From contig NZ_SODM01000005.1 in the NCBI RefSeq assembly GCF_004368785.1, forward strand, positions 310,001-374,000: DNA of 64,000 nucleotides, given 5' to 3'. Below the pieces are notes generated by a model. It was not told where the DNA came from and did no database searches. It saw only the letters and a list, made by a program, of their open reading frames with translations. This DNA is from Flavobacterium sp. 270. GTDB lineage: Bacteria > Bacteroidota > Bacteroidia > Flavobacteriales > Flavobacteriaceae. How positions within the stretch are numbered: position 1 is the first letter of the stretch; every line of letters begins with the position of its first letter. The position numbers and the translations under genes were made by a program. Of the stretch, positions 11,575-20,294 are shown piece after piece.

Positions 11575-12129
11575 TTATTGAACCAATAAAAAATTGTAAT
11601 TGATTTTTATCTTATCAGCAATTTTGTTTCTCACCAAGCTTGGTATTTGTATATCAAAATCTTCTGGTTTTACTTCAAATGCGCCAACAGCAATTACTCC
11701 GTTAGCAGCTTTAGAAATTTTTATTATTACAGATATGGGTTTTGTTTTTCCGTGAATGGTAAGATCTCCTTTTAAAGTAAAATTTTTGGCTGTATTTGAG
11801 ATTTTAGAAATATCAAAATCTTCAATTTTACCTTTTAAAGTTGCTTTAGAAAATTTTTCGGAATCCATGTAATTTTCATTAAAATGTTCTTCCATTAAAG
11901 CAACCTTAAATCGGAAACCTTTTATAAGAACCAAAGAAGCAAAATCTCCGGTGGATTGTTCTAAAACTGCAGATACACTTTTATTTTCGGCTGCAACTTC
12001 TTCATACGAAGGCATAGAAGCCTGAAATTTTATACTGCCCGTTTTTGTAATTAGTTTTTGCGCAAATCCAGTTGTACTTACGGCAATAAACAAAAGCAAT
12101 ACGAGGGAATTTATAAATGTTTTTTTCAT
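11575..12129 (-). CDS. YceI family periplasmic lipid-binding protein
   Basis: 184 residues. A type I signal peptide (to about AFAQ, residue 24) is followed by a lipocalin-like YceI domain: GSIKFQASMPSYEEVAAENK, a middle AVLEQSTGDFASLVLIKGFRF and a later LKGDLTIHGKTKPISV, the family signature. YceI proteins hold amphiphilic isoprenoid chains such as polyprenyl or quinone-like lipids inside an antiparallel barrel. It is last of four genes (OB-fold, DUF5777, cytochrome, YceI) behind the ECF-type promoter at 13861-13889, and starts 5 bases after the cytochrome stop. A lipid or quinone carrier role for that system is an inference. Confidence 0.92.
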   Translation of the reverse strand: MKKTFINSLVLLLFIAVSTTGFAQKLITKTGSIKFQASMPSYEEVAAENKSVSAVLEQSTGDFASLVLIKGFRFKVALMEEHFNENYMDSEKFSKATLKGKIEDFDISKISNTAKNFTLKGDLTIHGKTKPISVIIKISKAANGVIAVGAFEVKPEDFDIQIPSLVRNKIADKIKINYNFLLVQ

Positions 12130-12134
12130 GATAT

Positions 12135-12560
12135 TTAATTTTCTTTTAAACCGTCAGTATTCCATTTTACAATCACATCAATATTAGTCTGAGACATTCT
12201 TCCTCCCTGAGGCATAATACCTTGCTGACCGCTTTGCAACTGAATTCTGCTTAATAAATCAGTATTTTGAACTGCCGCTTTTACCTCAGCATAAGTAGTT
12301 AAAGGTCTAAAAGATGCCGATCTGCCTCCTTGATGACAGCTTATACAATTGGCATCAATAATTGATTTTACATTTTGAGTATAAGTAATTGCCGTTACGG
12401 GATCTGTACCTGGGGTTCCTGTTCCCGGAGTTCCCGTTCCTGGATTGCCATTTCCCGGATCAGTTCCTGTTGTAGGCGTTTCAATGTCTTGATAAGTGTC
12501 AGAATCACTACAGCTTGTAAGTGTAGCGAGTAAAAATATAAGTGCTATTGCTTTTTTCAT
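12135..12560 (-). CDS. Mono-heme c-type cytochrome lipoprotein
   Basis: 141 residues. A signal peptide with lipobox LTSC (Cys about 17) anchors it to a membrane; a Gly/Thr/Pro-rich linker (GNGNPGTGTPGTGTPGTDP, ~38-56) extends the domain outward. One heme-attachment site, CISCH (about 73-77), sits in VKSIIDANCISCHQGGRSAS; a Met in IMPQGGRMS (~115-121) could be the distal ligand. This is the usual class of PSD1-like or cytochrome C 'DUF' lipoproteins. It lies between DUF5777 and YceI genes and shares their ECF-type promoter, which suggests electron transfer at the cell envelope (inference). Confidence 0.9.
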   Translation of the reverse strand: MKKAIALIFLLATLTSCSDSDTYQDIETPTTGTDPGNGNPGTGTPGTGTPGTDPVTAITYTQNVKSIIDANCISCHQGGRSASFRPLTTYAEVKAAVQNTDLLSRIQLQSGQQGIMPQGGRMSQTNIDVIVKWNTDGLKEN

Positions 12561-12581
12561 AGTTTGTGGTTTATTGTTTTT

Positions 12582-13424
12582 TTAAAATACTCTGTACAAG
12601 TTAAATCCGAAGAAGAAATCTCCTTTATCCCATTTTCCTGATGCATTCGTGAGGTACCCACTTTCGCTCATGGCTTGTGAATTGGTAAATATTAATTGAA
12701 AAACGTGTCCTCCAGTTTCAACATCCAAACCTACAGACAATGGATTTTGGTAAAAGTTAGGCTTGTCAAAATTGTGCATGTATTCTAAATTAACAGACAA
12801 TCTTTTGGTGATTTTATAGCGACCGCCACCTCCAAAAGAAAACTGATTGTCTCTTTCGATATCAGGATTATAGAGGTTTTTGTGTATAAAAGACGGTACT
12901 ACTTCTAAAGATAATTTTTGACTAATTTTTCTAGATATTAGCAATTGTTGTACAAAGGTGGTGCGGTGCTTAAATTCTAAACCGGGATATTGATCTTTTT
13001 CTAAAAAAGTATTAATATCTGCAACACTGTACCCAACAATATCTACAGGAAAACTGTCGTCTTGTCTCATCATTCGGTATTTTACTCCCGTTTCATACAT
13101 TTTATTTAAAGTATGTCTGGAAAGACTCACAGACAACCAATCGGTAAGACCGTAAATACCGCCAAGTTTTGTAGTAGCATTATCAAGACCAAAAAAACTG
13201 TCAAAACCATCTTTTACAGTTCCAAAACGGTGCGAAACCACAAAATAGAATTCTTTTTTGGCAGGCATTTTTGTGGTTTGTAAGGTTACCAGCTGTAAAG
13301 CTTTAAAAGTTGCCGTAGAATAATTATCTACTACCTGAGTAGAATCAAGACTCTTTAGTAAATCATCTTGCGAATATGCCATCGCAGCCAGAAAAAGGCA
13401 GATTGGGACTAAAAATTTCTTCAT
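12582..13424 (-). CDS. DUF5777 family outer membrane beta-barrel protein
   Basis: 280 residues. A signal peptide ending near AYSQ (about 19) is followed by alternating strands ending in a Phe (GDFFFGFNLYRVF), the mark of an outer membrane barrel. KKEFYFVVSHRFGTVKDGFDSFFGLDNATT and GLTDWLSVSLSRHTLNKMYETGVKY are words of the DUF5777 family, which is often found beside c-type cytochromes and YceI in Bacteroidota. It starts 3 bases after the OB-fold gene ends and lies 21 bases ahead of the cytochrome gene. Function unknown; a channel or receptor is possible. Confidence 0.85.
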   Translation of the reverse strand: MKKFLVPICLFLAAMAYSQDDLLKSLDSTQVVDNYSTATFKALQLVTLQTTKMPAKKEFYFVVSHRFGTVKDGFDSFFGLDNATTKLGGIYGLTDWLSVSLSRHTLNKMYETGVKYRMMRQDDSFPVDIVGYSVADINTFLEKDQYPGLEFKHRTTFVQQLLISRKISQKLSLEVVPSFIHKNLYNPDIERDNQFSFGGGGRYKITKRLSVNLEYMHNFDKPNFYQNPLSVGLDVETGGHVFQLIFTNSQAMSESGYLTNASGKWDKGDFFFGFNLYRVF

Positions 13425-13427
13425 AAA

Positions 13428-13835
13428 TTAATTATTAATTTGTTTGATAATGGTGCATTGATCTAATTTAACCTCTTGAAAAAGCTCATCATAACCAATA
13501 CATTTGCCTTTAACGGTTACTTTCTTGTTTAGAAACGACTTGTTTAATTTTTGAGTGAACAGGCAAAAAATATTGTTTTCTATCTGGATTACAGAATCTG
13601 TTTCTATCGTTACTTTTCCAGTTATTTCAACCGTTTTATTGAGGTATAATGCATCTGCTTTTTTTGGATCTGAATTATAATCGTTAAGGAATGTTGTGGC
13701 GTCTATACTAAAATCAGGCATTTCAGATTCTATATTACGAGCTTCCTTAAAGACAACTCCGTAATAAAAATAAATGCCTCCTGAAAGCGCCAACAACAAA
13801 GCAGCAATTACAATTACTATTTTTTTTCTTTTCAT
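13428..13835 (-). CDS. Membrane-anchored OB-fold (tRNA_anti-like) protein
   Basis: 135 residues. Residues 4-25 are one membrane helix (IVIVIAALLLALSGGIYFYYGV). The rest is an OB-fold of the tRNA_anti-like kind: YLNKTVEITGKVTIETDSVIQIENNIFCLF and KKVTVKGKCIGYDELFQEVKLDQC. These proteins have no known nucleic-acid role; they face the periplasm. It is first in the four-gene operon and its start lies 25 bases below the TGTTTTA box of the ECF-type promoter at 13861-13889. Confidence 0.8.
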   Translation of the reverse strand: MKRKKIVIVIAALLLALSGGIYFYYGVVFKEARNIESEMPDFSIDATTFLNDYNSDPKKADALYLNKTVEITGKVTIETDSVIQIENNIFCLFTQKLNKSFLNKKVTVKGKCIGYDELFQEVKLDQCTIIKQINN

Positions 13836-13860: not shown

Positions 13861-13889
13861 TAAAACAGCTTTAACAGAGATTACCCTAC
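13861..13889 (-). promoter_or_regulatory. ECF-type promoter element, copy A (OB-fold operon)
   Basis: On the minus strand: GTAGGGTAA (13889-13881), 13 bases, TGTTTTA (13867-13861). The same bipartite element with the same 13-base spacer stands ahead of three other transcription units in 14978-19151. The 12 bases AAAGCTGTTTTA are shared exactly with copy B. Confidence 0.85.
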
Positions 13890-13971
13890 CAAAGAATTGC
13901 TGTTTTGTAAAAAAAGTTGAGAAAGAGAGATAAGTGCTTATTTCTTAGTGAATAAGCTTTGAAGAAAAAAG

Positions 13972-14016
13972 TTATTTCAAATTAGTTCAACAGGACATTG
14001 AACTAATTCGAAATAA
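13972..14016 (-). terminator. Terminator of the COG4315-type lipoprotein gene
   Basis: 19-base arms (13972-13990 and 13998-14016) pair at 18 of 19 positions around a 7-base loop; on the minus strand a T-rich run follows. It insulates the lipoprotein gene from the OB-fold operon, so that each unit depends on its own ECF-type promoter. Confidence 0.88.
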
Positions 14017-14047
14017 ACTTAGAACAGATCAAATAAATTTGCCTGAT

Positions 14048-14950
14048 TTATATAGCAAGTGGGGAATCTTTTACCGGTACAGGCCAAACTGCAGGGCTAG
14101 GAAAACTAATTCCTTTATTTGCACCTCTTACGCCGGCATCTTGTCCGAAATAGTATAAAGGCCAGCCGTTGTAAACCAATTGCGATTTGCCAAATACAGT
14201 AATAACAGAAAATTTAGATTTATCAAGAACAGACGGAACAACAATTTTATCCGTTTCGTAAATTGGCCAAACAGCATTGTTTGAGAAATCTGCTTTTGTA
14301 AAATTATTCTTTTGGAAATTATCGTTCTTAAAAGTGTAAAGCGTTAATCCTTTAGCATCTGTAAAATAGGTCGTCTGACCGTCTCCAACAGTATAATCAG
14401 ATTTGTAGTTTTTTCCGTCATGACCTACAAGCTGGCTTCTTACAATCATAATAGAATAATCTGGTTTTGCGATAAACCAAACACCGCCAAATCCATCTCC
14501 TGCTGTTTTACCCGGAGCTTCAATTGTATTAGTACCTGCGCCGCCATATCCATCACCTCCAGAAACTGGTGCATAATAATACAATGGCCAGCCTTTATAG
14601 GTCAATTGTTTTTTACCCGATGTATTGGTTATAGTAGCAAAATCAGATAATGTTAATCCTGCACCTAATTTATCAGCAGTTAAATTATCTACTAAAAATG
14701 CAGGCCATAAAGCTTCGCATCCTCCCGTACAAGATGTTTGTCCATTAGCATCTGTTGCAAAAAAATACAAAGATCTTCCCGTTTTATCAGAAAGATAAGA
14801 ACCCAATGTAGCACTTGTAGAAAGATTAACTTCTGTTTTTAATTCTGGGACAGTAGGAGTAGTGTTATCACTACTATCACTACTGCAGCTTGAAAAAAAT
14901 GTAGTTGCTACAAGTGCAGCCAAAGCGAAAGTAATTTGTTTTAATTTCAT
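14048..14950 (-). CDS. Lipoprotein with COG4315-type secreted repeats (PF03640)
   Basis: 300 residues. The signal peptide ends at lipobox FSSC (Cys about 22). Two tandem halves follow, each with a GRSLYFFATDANGQ / GLTLYTFKNDN unit and a later YKGWPLYYYAP / YNGWPLYYFGQD unit plus an ALWPAF, NAVWPIY or PAVWPVP tag; this is the 'secreted repeat of unknown function' family. The first unit holds a CTGGC pair of cysteines. Role unknown; members are often co-located with cytochromes or oxidative-stress genes. It is a single-gene unit with the ECF-type promoter at 14978-15006, 27 bases upstream. Confidence 0.88.
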   Translation of the reverse strand: MKLKQITFALAALVATTFFSSCSSDSSDNTTPTVPELKTEVNLSTSATLGSYLSDKTGRSLYFFATDANGQTSCTGGCEALWPAFLVDNLTADKLGAGLTLSDFATITNTSGKKQLTYKGWPLYYYAPVSGGDGYGGAGTNTIEAPGKTAGDGFGGVWFIAKPDYSIMIVRSQLVGHDGKNYKSDYTVGDGQTTYFTDAKGLTLYTFKNDNFQKNNFTKADFSNNAVWPIYETDKIVVPSVLDKSKFSVITVFGKSQLVYNGWPLYYFGQDAGVRGANKGISFPSPAVWPVPVKDSPLAI

Positions 14951-14977
14951 GATTTTTAATTTTAGTTTATATCATGT

Positions 14978-15006
14978 TAAAACAGCTTTGATGCAGATTA
15001 CCCTAC
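14978..15006 (-). promoter_or_regulatory. ECF-type promoter element, copy B (COG4315-type lipoprotein)
   Basis: On the minus strand: GTAGGGTAA (15006-14998), 13 bases, TGTTTTA (14984-14978). Identical boxes and spacer length to copies A, C and D. Confidence 0.85.
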
Positions 15007-15074
15007 CAAAAAAATGTTCTTTTGTGAAAAAAATTAAAAGAACAAGATTTTTTGAAAACCTTAAACAGAGAGAA

Positions 15075-17609
15075 TTATAATGAAACTCTAAAACTCACAT
15101 TTGGAGTTCTTTGCAGTGCAAAAGTTTCGACTTCTTCAATAGAATTCGATAAAGAATTAATTCTATAATATTCGCTGATTTCATTTTTCCTGTTCAGAAT
15201 ATTCAAAATAGATACTCCTAATTTATATTGAATTCCCTTTTCACTTTCCCATTTATAAGTCGTAGAAAGATTAAGCTGCGAAAAAATATGCAGATTGGTA
15301 TTATTAGGTTTATTGAAAACCAATACAGGATCTGAAGGATCTATTTGAGAGTCAGCCAGAGAAGTTTTTGGTCGGCCGGAAGACCATTTTGCTCCCAAAG
15401 CAATTTTAAAATTATTTTTCTCATAAATTCCCGCCCACGACAAAGTATGCGTTAACTCAAAATTATTTGGAAAACGGGAAAACTCATAGTTAGAAAAATG
15501 GTAATTGTTGTTATTATAAGTATAACTGAACCAGGTTAGAAACTGATTTATTTTTTTCTGAATTAAAAATTCTGTTCCCAAAACTTCATAACCGCCAGTT
15601 GTTCGAACAAATTCTAATTGATTCTGAAAACCTTGACTGGAAGTTGTAATTCCGGTTACTTTTTTATAAAAGTTTTCTATATCCAGCAACCAGTCATTTT
15701 TTTTGTAAAATAAATTTAAAGAAATCTGTCTGCTTTTCTGAATAGGAATTGTGGTATTATTAGAGATAATCCAGCGTCTTTTTTCAATACCAAAATAATC
15801 TTTTTGCAAATCAATAATTTGTTGAGAGGTTTGACTTTTAAGTTCTCCCAGCAGCTCTATATTTAGACTTTTACTAATGCCGTAGCCAAATTGCATTCGT
15901 GGCTCAACAATGTATTTTTTAAATTTTTCAATATAATTAATTCGGGTTCCGGCCTTAAAATATATTCTGGAAAGCGTATCGTTATATTTTCCTTCAAAAA
16001 TTAAAGCATGCGTTCTCAGCACATCTTTCGTTTTACTATAGAAATCAGGATTCGTTACATCCTCCAGATTTGTAATTCCGATTTCATTAAATTGATAGCC
16101 ATCATTAATGCTGAATTTTGGACTTATAATATGATTATTCTCTAAATTAATTCCATTATTATTCACCGTATTTTCCTGAATTACAATTTGATTTTCCAGA
16201 GAAGTTTTTTGGTTGGCCAAAAGTTCGTAAGAAGAATTATAAATATTAATTTTAGTGGTATTGAAGCTGTTCCAGTTTCTTCTCCACGACAAATTGCCAC
16301 CGTAATTTTGCTGGCGTAAATTATTATTTGCGGTTTTATGTACATCATATAATGTTGCACTCTGAAAAACTTCCAAATTGTCTTTGATGGTAATCAAATC
16401 GAGTACAATTTGATCTTTACTTCCTATTTTTTGAGCATATTTAAGAGTGGCATCATAGAAACCGAATTTTTTATCTTTTTCATAATCAATATTATGTTTG
16501 GATGAAAAATCAGTTATTGTGGTATTTTGAAATACTTTGTTGAAATATTCTTTGTACGTAGGAGTTTCCACAAAATCAGTGATAGATTTACGTGCCGAAA
16601 TTTCGATATAACTCTTTTTAGAAAGATTGTATTTCGCATAAACATCGGCATTAATCATATTTATTCCGGCACTAAAAGAGTTCTTTTCTGCTTTTTCCGG
16701 AGTAGAAGAAATAGCGACAACGCTGGAAACACTTTCTCCAAAAAAGGCAGAACTTCCATTTTTATAAATAGAAATAGTGTGTGCCAGATTAGGATTAAAG
16801 ACGGATATTAAACCAAAAAAATGTCCCGTTTGAAACATTCGAATTCCATTCCATAAAAATAAATTTTGATCATGTGTACCTCCGCGAACATTAATGCTCG
16901 ATACACTTTCGTCGAGACTGTTTACACCCGGAATTTGCTGCATGGTCTGTAAAGCATCGGGTTCGATAAGCCCGGGAAGAATACCAAATTTTTTAGGCTT
17001 AATTTGAAATGATCCATCGTTGTTTTTAGAAATACCCGAAGCTAAAATTGCATTGGTTTTAATTTCTTCAAGTTCTGTAATTTCGGGTTCTAATACTATT
17101 TCGAGACAATTTTTAGAATCCGTATTTCCTGCTGTAATTCTTTTGGTTACAAACCCAACATGGCTAATTGTAAATAGAGAGGAGTCTTCTTTTTTAAATT
17201 CAAAATAACCATTTGCATCTGTTGTAAGCTGCGTTTTATTACTCAGATTAATATTGGCGTTTTCGATAGGTTTTTTATCCGTACTAGAAATAATGTACGC
17301 GCAGATTTTTTTCGGTTCATTCTCAATTTTATAAATATTAATGAATTTGTTGCCTATATTTTCAAAAGACAAATTGGTTTTTTTTGCCAGATATTGCAGT
17401 TTCTGATCTAAAGAAAGTGATTTTTTTGGAGGACATAATTGCAGTTCAAAAATAGCATCTTCGGTATAATTAAAACTAACCTGATGCTGTTGCTCAATAT
17501 CAATTATGATTTGTCTAAAAGGCATAAGTTTTCCCTTGTCCTGAGCAAAAAGATTCAGGACATAGAAAAATATAAAAAACAAAAAATGAAATTGTTTGGG
17601 GACGAACAT
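15075..17609 (-). CDS. STN-bearing TonB-dependent receptor (FecA-like transducer)
   Basis: 844 residues. Signal peptide to ~22; an STN signalling domain about 30-95 (FRQIIIDIEQQHQVSFNYTE...LQYLAKKTNLSFENIGN); a carboxypeptidase-regulatory-like Ig domain about 95-175 (PIENANINLSNKTQLTTDANGYF); a plug about 200-310 (MQQIPGVNSLDESVSSINVRGGTHDQ); then a barrel ending VSFRVSL. The STN domain is what lets such receptors pass a ligand signal to a FecR protein. The gene follows fecR with no gap (TAAATG), so receptor and anti-sigma are one unit under promoter copy C. Ligand unknown; the plug lacks SusC hallmarks, so a small molecule, peptide or metal complex is possible. Confidence 0.92.
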   Translation of the reverse strand: MFVPKQFHFLFFIFFYVLNLFAQDKGKLMPFRQIIIDIEQQHQVSFNYTEDAIFELQLCPPKKSLSLDQKLQYLAKKTNLSFENIGNKFINIYKIENEPKKICAYIISSTDKKPIENANINLSNKTQLTTDANGYFEFKKEDSSLFTISHVGFVTKRITAGNTDSKNCLEIVLEPEITELEEIKTNAILASGISKNNDGSFQIKPKKFGILPGLIEPDALQTMQQIPGVNSLDESVSSINVRGGTHDQNLFLWNGIRMFQTGHFFGLISVFNPNLAHTISIYKNGSSAFFGESVSSVVAISSTPEKAEKNSFSAGINMINADVYAKYNLSKKSYIEISARKSITDFVETPTYKEYFNKVFQNTTITDFSSKHNIDYEKDKKFGFYDATLKYAQKIGSKDQIVLDLITIKDNLEVFQSATLYDVHKTANNNLRQQNYGGNLSWRRNWNSFNTTKINIYNSSYELLANQKTSLENQIVIQENTVNNNGINLENNHIISPKFSINDGYQFNEIGITNLEDVTNPDFYSKTKDVLRTHALIFEGKYNDTLSRIYFKAGTRINYIEKFKKYIVEPRMQFGYGISKSLNIELLGELKSQTSQQIIDLQKDYFGIEKRRWIISNNTTIPIQKSRQISLNLFYKKNDWLLDIENFYKKVTGITTSSQGFQNQLEFVRTTGGYEVLGTEFLIQKKINQFLTWFSYTYNNNNYHFSNYEFSRFPNNFELTHTLSWAGIYEKNNFKIALGAKWSSGRPKTSLADSQIDPSDPVLVFNKPNNTNLHIFSQLNLSTTYKWESEKGIQYKLGVSILNILNRKNEISEYYRINSLSNSIEEVETFALQRTPNVSFRVSL

Positions 17610-18509
17610 TTATTTTTCGACAAATATGATTTTGTTTTTTGAGACTTTTTTTGTTTCTAAATGATAGGTTGTACTAATAATATGTAAGGCAACATCCAGG
17701 TCTTTAGCAGGCAATTTTCCTGTAAATAACGAGACTGTATCTTTTGCATTCAATTCGATTGTAATATTGTACTGCCTTTCAACTTCATCCAAAATAGTTC
17801 TGATGTTTTCTTTATCAAAAGTTATCTGGTTATCCATCCATTCTGGTTGTAATGCGTTTATTGTCATTTTAACCTGTTTTCCGTTTTCAAAACTAACACC
17901 TTGTCCGTGAGTTAATAAAATTTGAGTGTTGGCATAATTTACCTTCACACGTCCTTCATAACACACCACATAAAATTTATTTTTTCTGGCCTTCACATTA
18001 AACTGAGTTCCTAAAACCGATACTTTTCCAAGATTCGTCTGCACTTCAAAACGTCTGCCTTTGGCAACTCTAAAATAAGCTTCACCTTTTAATTCCAGAC
18101 GTCTGTTATTGTCCCAGTTCCATTTTTTATAATTTATTTCAGAACCTGAATTTAAAACCACTTCAGAATTATCAGGCAAAGAAAAAGTTGTTTTTTCTCC
18201 AAAATCTGCTGTCTGAGTTTGAGGCATCAAATACTTAAAAGCAAAAGTAATTCCAAGACCAAGAACTAAAATAGCTGCCACTTGAAACATCCATTTTTTG
18301 TGTAAAGGAACAACCTTTGGCGTCGCTTTTTTCTGCTTAAGAATATTCGACAACATCGCATTTTCATCCAAATCACCTACCTCCAAATGTTCTGTATAAC
18401 TTTTGATTTTTTGGTATTTTTCGAAATCAGGACTTGCTTTAAATGCAGCTAATTCATCTTCCGATAAATCATTGTTGAGCCATTTTGCTAATAAGCGATC
18501 TTTTTTCAT
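17610..18509 (-). CDS. FecR family anti-sigma factor
   Basis: 299 residues from the ATG at 18509, which begins MKKDRLLAKWLNNDLSEDEL; a longer frame to 18569 would overlap the sigma gene and its promoter and is rejected. Order: cytoplasmic helical N-terminus (~1-70), membrane helix at about 78-100 (FQVAAILVLGLGITFAFKYL), FecR domain about 105-200 (TTFSLPDNSEVVLNSGSEINY, GKVSVLGTQFNVKA), and a C-terminal DUF4974 region (ITFDKENIRTILDEVERQYNI) that contacts the receptor's STN domain. It holds the sigma factor until the receptor signals. Promoter copy C lies 18 bases upstream. Confidence 0.94.
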   Translation of the reverse strand: MKKDRLLAKWLNNDLSEDELAAFKASPDFEKYQKIKSYTEHLEVGDLDENAMLSNILKQKKATPKVVPLHKKWMFQVAAILVLGLGITFAFKYLMPQTQTADFGEKTTFSLPDNSEVVLNSGSEINYKKWNWDNNRRLELKGEAYFRVAKGRRFEVQTNLGKVSVLGTQFNVKARKNKFYVVCYEGRVKVNYANTQILLTHGQGVSFENGKQVKMTINALQPEWMDNQITFDKENIRTILDEVERQYNITIELNAKDTVSLFTGKLPAKDLDVALHIISTTYHLETKKVSKNKIIFVEK

Positions 18510-18527
18510 TGTGCTTGTATTATATAT

Positions 18528-18556
18528 TAAAACAATTGGAAGTGAATTTACCCTAC
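18528..18556 (-). promoter_or_regulatory. ECF-type promoter element, copy C (fecR and receptor)
   Basis: On the minus strand: GTAGGGTAA (18556-18548), 13 bases, TGTTTTA (18534-18528). It fits exactly in the 49-base gap between the sigma factor stop and the fecR start, so fecR and the receptor can be induced without the sigma gene. Confidence 0.85.
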
Positions 18557-18558
18557 TT

Positions 18559-19074
18559 TTATAAATCAATTTCTTTACGTAAGCTTAATAAAGCCAAATG
18601 AATCCGTTTTTCTACGGCTTTTACGCTGATATTTAATTCCGTGGCAATTTCGCTGTATTTTTTTCCGTCAATGCGATGCATCAAAAAAGCGATGCGCTGT
18701 TTTTCATTTAAATTTTCAATAGCTTTCAAAAGTTTAGACTGAAATTGTTTTTCCTCCAAAATATATTCTGGATTTTCATTAGTTTTATCTAAACCCGTGA
18801 AATCTTTTTCATATCTCAAAACCACTTTTTGATGTGCAATTTCGTTGAGACTGCTATTATTGGCAATTGTATAAATATAAGATTTCGCTTTTTCCAGCGG
18901 CACAGAGGCGCAGTTCTGCCAAAGTTTTATAAAAGCGTCTTGTGCCAAATCTTCTGCCTGGTTGATATTGCCATATTTGTAAAAAAGAAAATTTCGAAGC
19001 GCTTTTATGTGGCTTTTAAAAAAGGATGAAAAGATTATTTCATCACAAGTGTCTGGCTGGGGTTTATTTGACAT
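18559..19074 (-). CDS. ECF sigma factor (FecI-like, RNA polymerase sigma-70 family)
   Basis: 171 residues with region 2 (~20-80; YKYGNINQAEDLAQDAFIKLWQNC, PLEKAKSYIYTIANNSSLNE) and region 4 (~115-168; NLNEKQRIAFLMHRIDGKKYSEIA and ISVKAVEKRIHLALLSLRKE, the helix-turn-helix). No region 1.1 or 3, as expected for ECF sigmas. It should direct polymerase to the bipartite elements at 13861, 14978, 18528 and 19123. No copy of that element faces the sigma gene itself. A TACTTTTG box on the minus strand (19106-19099), 24 bases ahead of its ATG, suggests transcription by the housekeeping sigma instead. Confidence 0.95.
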   Translation of the reverse strand: MSNKPQPDTCDEIIFSSFFKSHIKALRNFLFYKYGNINQAEDLAQDAFIKLWQNCASVPLEKAKSYIYTIANNSSLNEIAHQKVVLRYEKDFTGLDKTNENPEYILEEKQFQSKLLKAIENLNEKQRIAFLMHRIDGKKYSEIATELNISVKAVEKRIHLALLSLRKEIDL

Positions 19075-19098
19075 TTGGATTTTTCAGTTTGTACGTTG

Positions 19099-19106
19099 CA
19101 AAAGTA
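19099..19106 (-). promoter_or_regulatory. Possible -7 box of the sigma factor gene
   Basis: TACTTTTG on the minus strand matches the TAnnTTTG consensus 24 bases before the ATG at 19074. I do not find TTG at the expected distance upstream, so confidence is low. Confidence 0.4.
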
Positions 19107-19122
19107 TTTGTTTTTAGTTTAA

Positions 19123-19151
19123 GTAGGGTAAAAGTAGAGATGATTGTTTTA
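19123..19151 (+). promoter_or_regulatory. ECF-type promoter element, copy D (repeat lipoprotein)
   Basis: On the plus strand: GTAGGGTAA (19123-19131), 13 bases, TGTTTTA (19145-19151). It points away from the sigma gene toward the lipoprotein that starts at 19275, leaving a 5' leader of roughly 115 bases, longer than for the other three copies. Confidence 0.8.
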
Positions 19152-19274: not shown

Positions 19275-20294
19275 ATGTTACCTTTTAAAAAATATTTATC
19301 AATAGTGCTTTTTTTATTCTTGTTTTCTTGTCAAAGTGAAATGGGAGAAGAAGATTATAATACACAAGAAACAGTTACCAATGTTTCTCCTCTTACGACT
19401 TATTTGCAAAGAGTTGCAATGGTTAAAACTGTTCAGGATAACGTAATCGACAGGTCTAGTTATTGTACCATAAAATTTCCGTACACCGTAACAGTTAATA
19501 ATACGAACATTGCAATTAATACGGCGGCCGATTATCAGAAAGTATTAGATAATATCAACGCAAATACAAACGATGATGATGTAGTAAAAATAGATTTTCC
19601 GGTAACAATGGTTTACTATAATTACATCGAAAAAAATATTCCAGACGAAGCAGATTTTAATACTTTGATTGATTATTGGAATATGCATCCTGATCTTTTA
19701 TCGAAAATCAACGGACTTAATATTAATTATCCTATTACAATTAACAGCTACAACAGAGCAAACCAAATGGCAAGCTCAGAATCAATTATAAGCGATCAGG
19801 CATTTTTTAATTATATAAAAAACCTGAGCGACACCGAATACATTTCCTTAAAGTATCCAATTTCAATTGCAGATTATAATTATCAAACTAAATCAATAAC
19901 TAATAATTTAGATTTCGAAAATGCGATCAAATATGCTATTGATAATTGCCCGGAAAATAATATTGTAACATTAGATTTTGTAAACACGATAACAAAAGGT
20001 TCCTGGAAAATACCTTATTTTTTCTCTGGTTCAGAAAAAACTAGTTCGTATAGCGGTTATTCGTTTGTTTTTAAAAATGACTATTCGGTAGTTGCGACAA
20101 AAGGCTCGACAACAGAAACTGGTCAATGGGAAAGTAAATTACAGAATGGCGTAAGAGAACTAAAATTAACTTTCAGTTCAGAATTACTGAGCAAACTAAA
20201 TGATAATTGGAAATTGTTTGAGTTTAATAACTCACAAATAAGATTACGCGATGTAAGCAATAGCACCAATTATCTTTATTTTGAAAAACAATAA
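19275..20294 (+). CDS. Lipoprotein built of four ~55-residue repeats
   Basis: 339 residues. Signal peptide with lipobox FSC at residue ~19 (FLFLFSCQSEMGEED). From ~50 to ~235 a unit recurs four times: a strand with YPhydrophobicT (IKFPYTVTVNNT, IDFPVTMVYYNY, INYPITINSYNR, LKYPISIADYNY), an Asn-rich loop, and a helix with ADYQKVLDNI, ADFNTLIDYW, QAFFNYIKNL or LDFENAIKYA. A C-terminal ~100-residue beta-rich part (SYSGYSFVFKNDYSVVATKG, TTETGQWESK) resembles lipocalin-like lipoproteins. No function is known to me. It is the only plus-strand gene with the ECF-type promoter (copy D), which links it to the receptor system. Confidence 0.8.
   Translation: MLPFKKYLSIVLFLFLFSCQSEMGEEDYNTQETVTNVSPLTTYLQRVAMVKTVQDNVIDRSSYCTIKFPYTVTVNNTNIAINTAADYQKVLDNINANTNDDDVVKIDFPVTMVYYNYIEKNIPDEADFNTLIDYWNMHPDLLSKINGLNINYPITINSYNRANQMASSESIISDQAFFNYIKNLSDTEYISLKYPISIADYNYQTKSITNNLDFENAIKYAIDNCPENNIVTLDFVNTITKGSWKIPYFFSGSEKTSSYSGYSFVFKNDYSVVATKGSTTETGQWESKLQNGVRELKLTFSSELLSKLNDNWKLFEFNNSQIRLRDVSNSTNYLYFEKQ

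Follow-up and report, generated by a model that had tools for sequence, protein, structure and literature searches.

Does one extracytoplasmic function (ECF) sigma factor read a set of matching promoter-like elements scattered around its own gene, or do these elements answer to something else? The question arises from a 64,000-nucleotide stretch of Flavobacterium sp. 270 (assembly GCF_004368785.1, contig NZ_SODM01000005.1, positions 310,001 to 374,000 of the forward strand), hereafter the window. A preliminary description, made from the sequence alone, had reported four copies of the bipartite element GTAGGGTAA-N13-TGTTTTA and proposed that they define the regulon of an ECF sigma gene lying among them. 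Strong comparative evidence now argues that the elements are promoters of this sigma factor: one of the two boxes differs between sigma clades, motif and sigma occur together across the genus, and the elements are absent or decayed at loci without their target gene. We put the probability at about 0.88 that the sigma encoded at 18559-19074 uses all four as its promoters; it would drive four transcription units through them and be embedded in the feedback loop set out below.

The four elements are confined to one locus

All four elements are exact, with a constant spacing of 13 bases, at the positions and on the strands originally reported, and each faces the gene first named for it. Element 1 (13861..13889, minus strand) is assigned as the promoter of an operon that begins with an OB-fold gene, with 25 bases between box and ATG, and element 2 (14978..15006, minus) as that of a COG4315-type lipoprotein gene (27 bases). 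Element 3 (18528..18556, minus) lies in the gap between the sigma gene and fecR and is assigned to fecR and the receptor gene that follows it (18 bases), while element 4 (19123..19151, plus), divergent from the sigma gene, is assigned to a repeat lipoprotein (123 bases). The TGTTTTA box is common to all four, and our scan agrees that the window holds no fifth exact match.

These four sites are also the sole exact matches in the whole genome (5,727,777 bases), all inside 5.3 kb. About 0.008 exact matches would be expected genome-wide under an independent-base model, so that the four observed are not due to chance. The runners-up are seven sites at two mismatches. A genome-wide scan for many copies, set beforehand as a refuting test, returned the same four sites only, both for the exact motif and for a looser 12-base core, GTAGGG-N16-TGTTNTA (control, 1). 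Since relaxing the motif to this core adds no site, the other seven of the eight FecR loci in the genome are without the element; the genome scan found the core at none of them. At up to three mismatches the genome holds 96 sites and a backward-pattern control 163, and the pattern was discarded as noise at this level. In the window itself the same tolerance gives four matches where shuffled sequence averages 1.19, and at least four turn up in 6 of 100 shuffles; taken alone, this count is weak evidence.

Motif and sigma factor occur together in the genus

The exact motif is present in 31 of 101 genomes of the genus (65 matches; backward control, 0). Close relatives of the sigma were defined by E <= ~3e-75, a threshold taken from a gap in the list that was noticed after the search, and 44 genomes qualify. 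The motif occurs in 30 of these 44 but in only one of the 57 others (p 7e-14), and in this exception (G040) the match sits within a reading frame. Most of the 65 matches (56) lie within 6 kb of a close sigma; three are at 8-10 kb and six on other contigs, and three of these nine distant matches stand about 20-30 bases before lipoprotein genes (L149, L154 and L155).

The comparison of related loci, which the preliminary description had called for, supports it. We compared the best 80 of 370 Flavobacterium loci (sigma orthologue identity 80-96%), among which some species are repeated, so that the loci are not independent. The element between sigma and fecR is present in all 80 (70 exact, nine with one mismatch, one with two). 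Its divergent counterpart is exact in 55, with one mismatch in 22, two in one and three in two, and is thus found in 78 of 80 at up to two mismatches. An element past the receptor occurs in 77 of 80 (60 exact, 17 with one mismatch), and an exact second payload element in eight. In unique sequences (73-75 per class) the boxes carry 1.81-1.98 bits of information per base, the spacer 1.15-1.23, and the 20 bases downstream of the element 0.77-1.04.

Presence of the element follows presence of its target. The first gene past the receptor is of COG4315 type in 43 loci and the OB operon in 34, and the element is present in all 77; in L109 and L110 an unrelated convergent gene follows the receptor and the element is absent (0/2), and the 80th locus, L031, stops at a contig edge. 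At L049 the COG4315 gene lies about 4 kb off and carries its own exact element. L098 and L100 are without the repeat lipoprotein, and it is here that the divergent element has decayed to three mismatches; these two loci are identical across the 200 bases compared and are therefore counted as a single event.

Two observations concern the history of the locus. The species behind L098 and L100, F. cupreum and F. circumlabens, each hold a second locus copy, and these second copies, without the repeat lipoprotein, look near-identical between the species; recent transfer of the second copy is possible. Several Flavobacterium loci have ffh and folD next to the lipoprotein-sigma-fecR-receptor unit (identified in L157), perhaps the older place of this unit.

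A four-gene unit recurs across the family

Searched with a profile of the sigma, 114 of 149 genomes from the window's family (taken here as Flavobacteriaceae) yielded relatives. We read 130 of the family's sigma loci (30 from the search itself, 20 picked, and 80 from further down the list) and scanned them for GTAGGN-N16-TGTTNTA, allowing one mismatch over 11 bases. A site is present in the divergent gap at 107 loci, in the sigma-fecR gap at 100, in both at 97 and in either at 110. Counted per strand, the gaps (114 kb) contain 208 matches, against 11 in the remaining 794 kb. The gap limits had been fixed on the first 50 loci, and the last 80, which served as a fresh test, gave 64 divergent, 60 sigma-fecR, 57 both and 67 either. 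The boxes are retained at sigma identities near 50-60%, with variable spacers. Divergent from the sigma, 119 of the 125 open reading frames found at the 130 loci belong to the family of the window's lipoprotein, and the survey thus delimits a conserved unit of sigma, FecR, receptor and repeat lipoprotein.

Outside the family, sigma relatives were few at the cut-offs used: two genomes in a draw of 146 from the order and four in a draw of 198 from the phylum, with genome G420 left out of the reading of loci. L383, of the same class but outside the family, keeps GTAGGA-N16-TGTTCTA in its sigma-fecR gap; no such site was found in this gap at L380, L381, L384 and L385, nor at the family locus L382. 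Separately, where a locus among L169-L226 has both sites, their -10 boxes are often unlike, with TGTTTTA on the divergent side and TGTTATA between sigma and fecR (22/34), a contrast that may perhaps reflect promoter strength.

The -35 box changes with the sigma clade

Seventeen of the sigmas form a supported sister clade (Shimodaira-Hasegawa-like approximate likelihood ratio test, SH-aLRT, 98) whose recognition helix is distinct and whose loci lack a GTAGG site. Counting gapped words in the gaps of these loci, with no prior pattern, returned TCAGG-N17-TGTT at every one of the 17 loci, in 28 of their 34 gaps. On an exact scan, TCAGGN is found at 15 of the 17 and GTAGGN at none, L223 and L224 being without an exact site of either box; the other 113 loci show GTAGGN at 103 and TCAGGN at none, and outside the gaps there are six matches to GTAGGN and none to TCAGGN. 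Both kinds of sigma coexist in 17 genomes, where neither ever bears the other's box. The simplest reading of these sequences is that the sigma, rather than the genome, sets the -35 box. TGTT of the -10 box is common to both codes, and GTAGGA forms a further -35 variant. At L377 and L378, which encode a Flavobacterium sigma paralogue, GTAGGG-N16-TGTCTTA stands on both sides, with TGTC in the -10 box, possibly a further code.

Within the GTAGG loci the sixth base of the -35 box varies along with sigma residue 151, which we place, by comparison with sigma-E, where the recognition helix of region 4.2 begins. Leaving aside 14 loci whose base is mixed or another, G and A separate completely by this residue in the 96 unambiguous loci: the 53 with G have V, I or Q there and the 43 with A have T, R or S. 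At the level of sites (207 best sites per gap), V or I stands with G at 99, A at four and T at two; T with A at 75, G at five and T at three; R or S with A at 14; and other residues account for five sites.

Weighing the alternatives

Several observations weigh against reading the elements as promoters of this sigma. Fair conservation (1.23-1.54 bits per base) is also seen over about 20 bases ahead of the boxes, and selection may extend beyond the boxes. No GTAGG site was found at 20 of the 130 family loci; 17 of these make up the TCAGG clade, and L221, L226 and L306, outside this clade, are unexplained. The switch to TCAGG is a single evolutionary event seen in many genomes. The match between residue 151 and base 6 is a lead that we rejected as proof of recognition, since the tree has only two base changes and only one supported independent pair. 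Finally, the signalling domain of the receptor is weakly recognised: its N-terminus is without an STN match in Pfam, and a FecR_C-like match there scores 16.7 bits, below the cut-off of 24.4.

The conserved upstream bases would also suit another DNA-binding regulator of the same genes, for which the boxes would be binding sites while the promoters of the sigma lay elsewhere. We consider this very unlikely, because there are two boxes at a fixed spacing, placed 18-27 bases ahead of three of the four start codons, because one of them changes with the sigma clade even between paralogues of one genome, and because the site adjoins 110 of 130 sigma genes and is hardly found elsewhere in those loci. 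Alternatively, the elements might be read by several ECF sigmas of the whole class and so not form the regulon of one. The TGTT shared by both codes and the eight FecR genes of the genome would fit such cross-reading, but the core is absent from the other FecR loci and the two-code genomes keep their boxes apart, which makes this alternative highly improbable. A last reading, in which a small repeat or a duplicated stretch with no regulatory function gave rise to the elements, is extremely unlikely: although elements 1 and 2 have common flanking bases and resemble a duplicated promoter region, elements 3 and 4 have little in common with them beyond the boxes, the boxes are kept at sigma identities where spacers vary, and loci that lack a target gene have either no element there or a decayed one. 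The clade-specific box, the co-occurrence in the genus and this loss or decay support instead the one-sigma regulon that was first proposed.

Proposed wiring of the locus

The sigma gene (18559..19074, minus) encodes 171 amino acids with sigma-70 regions 2 and 4 only (Pfam Sigma70_r4_2, 64.4 bits; Sigma70_r2, 45.3 bits) and scores 121.7 bits against NCBIfam TIGR02985, slightly below the cut-off of 126.4. Next to it, fecR (17610..18509, minus; 299 amino acids) specifies an anti-sigma/pro-sigma regulator (Pfam FecR, 68.8 bits, and FecR_C, 40.2 bits, both above cut-off), and the TonB-dependent receptor (15075..17609, minus; 844 amino acids) matches Plug at 31.9 bits (cut-off 23.9) and CarbopepD_reg_2 at 37.6 bits. 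An element stands ahead of fecR and the receptor, that is, on the anti-sigma side, and none stands before the sigma gene on its own strand, in line with the preliminary description. Upstream of the sigma gene, TAnnTTTG occurs in 60 of the 80 Flavobacterium loci against 3% in shuffles; an excerpt of PMC9723704 gives this sequence as the -7 box of the housekeeping sigma, and TACTTTTG (19099..19106, minus) is the candidate -7 box in the window. A -33 box was not found, there being no TTG in the expected zone. The -35 box of element 4 overlaps this zone, where two polymerases may compete.

From these positions we infer the following course of transcription, ligand sensing and feedback. As in systems of the FecIR kind, receptor and FecR would hold or release the sigma according to an outside ligand. 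Free sigma, together with RNA polymerase, would read GTAGGG as the -35 and TGTTTTA as the -10 box and would turn on fecR and the receptor, the divergent repeat lipoprotein, the COG4315-type gene and the operon for OB, DUF5777, CXXCH and YceI proteins together. The sigma gene is probably transcribed by the housekeeping sigma, and since it is without an element, activation would raise anti-sigma and receptor relative to sigma, so that the loop would terminate itself once the ligand is gone.

The repeat lipoprotein and the payload genes

The repeat lipoprotein (19275..20294, plus; 339 amino acids) has no match in Pfam or NCBIfam and consists of repeats, which were judged by eye, followed by a lipocalin-like C-terminal domain (residues 232-339). 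Its AlphaFold model, built from 20 sequences, has a mean predicted local distance difference test (pLDDT) score of 79.6. A fold search, which covers mainly residues 232-339 and barely the repeats, returned 8ehc (Z 11.3) and 4zgf (Z 11.1) for the lipocalin-like domain. After the lipid cysteine, 99 of 114 parsed family members carry [QR]-[KDESTN]-[DE], which resembles the surface-export consensus QKDDE given for Capnocytophaga in part of PMC5080379; the window's own CQSEMGE fits less well. The protein may be a surface partner of the receptor. No RNA structure was found in its leader (z 0.31).

Of the four targets first proposed, fecR-receptor and the divergent lipoprotein stand as a conserved core, whereas the other two, the COG4315 gene and the OB operon, have the look of position-dependent additions. 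The COG4315-type lipoprotein (Lipoprotein_15; 14048..14950, minus; 300 amino acids) scores 92 bits in Pfam. The payload operon (11575..13835, minus), delimited from Pfam matches and reading frames, comprises four genes separated by 3, 21 and 5 bases: an OB-fold tRNA_anti-like protein (13428-13835), a DUF5777 beta-barrel (12582-13424), a CXXCH lipoprotein (12135-12560) and YceI (11575-12129). The products of the payload genes are predicted envelope proteins. The third had been called a heme lipoprotein; it is indeed a lipoprotein with one CXXCH motif, but its Pfam cytochrome match (22.7 bits) falls below the cut-off of 27.

DUF5777 is found in 68 of 101 genus genomes. The operon bears the element in five of six cases adjoining the sigma, in four of 24 with the sigma elsewhere (two of these 24, L326 without and L360 with a site, are actually within about 3 kb of their sigma), and in none of 20 with no close sigma (the genomes of three of these, L318, L321 and L323, do hold a sigma relative, though a more distant one). 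These counts speak against an element being a constant feature of this operon, an idea that we rejected. At different sigma loci the same place is taken by OB versions whose identity to that of the window is 30-46% in some and 62-76% in others. Different versions in the same place, and an element mainly near the sigma, suggest that payload is exchanged by position, and the COG4315 gene and OB operon look like payload recruited in this way.

Elements 1 and 2 have spacer and upstream bases in common, as do matching elements in relatives; apparently a duplication of the payload promoter accompanied the event that made the COG4315 gene and the OB operon neighbours. Exact elements distant from the sigma stand directly before lipoprotein genes at L149 (6632-7468), L155 (7033-7859) and L154 (4466-5672), where the lipoprotein has two CXXCH motifs and is divergent from an OB/DUF5777 operon bearing a one-mismatch element. 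A related payload cluster in L157 (12821-14495) has an ankyrin-repeat protein as a further member, along with one that bears a type IX secretion system (T9SS) sorting tail and whose DOMON match, at 22.5 bits, stays below the cut-off of 32.7.

Significance and comparison with known systems

Our literature search, outside whose reach lay most subscription journals and the ECF re-classification paper, found no description of the motif, the gene set or this ECF sigma group; the proposed wiring, in which a sigma drives its anti-sigma gene, does have a precedent in HasI/HasS, described in part of PMC9249621. What appears new is a closed, predicted four-promoter regulon, a family-wide four-gene module and putative sigma-specific -35 boxes. 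An ECF sigma group present in 114 of 149 family genomes thereby receives a candidate promoter sequence and a whole predicted regulon, and an unnamed, nearly always present lipoprotein is tied to a receptor-signalling module. Sister sigmas of one cell beside separate -35 boxes make sigma-promoter pairing directly testable and may offer insulated promoter pairs for flavobacterial genetics. A broader proposal, which we advance tentatively and hold to be less likely than not as a whole, is that four-part modules operate family-wide in which the lipoprotein partners the receptor at the cell surface or gates its ligand, in the role that SusD has for SusC, that a -35 code (GTAGGG, GTAGGA, TCAGGA) set by the sigma recognition helix insulates paralogous modules, and that payload operons are exchangeable by position.

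To judge by its sigma, FecR and receptor plug, the locus would belong to FecIR-like surface signalling with HasI-like wiring. It shares an ECF sigma, a FecR-type regulator, a TonB-dependent receptor and, by prediction, a promoter set of the sigma's own with FecI-FecR-FecA, the ferric citrate system of E. coli, in which, according to PMC9249621, fecA is the one target of FecI and fecIR has no autoregulation. In the window, by contrast, an element precedes fecR, and by element position the divergent lipoprotein and payload genes are included as well. Phosphate-utilisation clusters with FecR and sigma genes within them are mentioned in part of PMC8115612. According to section 22 of PMC9249621, the sigmas of iron uptake transcribe neither their own gene nor that of their anti-sigma; the exception is HasI, which drives hasS. 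As in HasI-HasS-HasR, the haem uptake system of Serratia marcescens, anti-sigma gene and receptor would here be driven and the sigma not, again judging by element position; unlike Has, which has a secreted haemophore and different boxes (-35 region TTTACGGGTTT), the present locus has a surface-type repeat lipoprotein. The HasI-type exception is thus, on the evidence of element placement, apparently widespread across a family. The SM6 ECF promoters of Flavobacterium psychrophilum, likewise predicted and from the same genus, have CGT in the -10 region and concern T9SS genes (excerpt of PMC9723704), whereas here the box is TGTTTTA and the regulon local. A sigma/anti-sigma pair with a TonB-dependent receptor also characterises Bacteroides SusCD loci such as PUL24 (BT1877/BT1876; part of PMC11501099). 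Unlike those loci, the window pairs its receptor with a different kind of lipoprotein: a Pfam scan of ten window proteins, the lipoproteins around the receptor among them, returned no SusD family.

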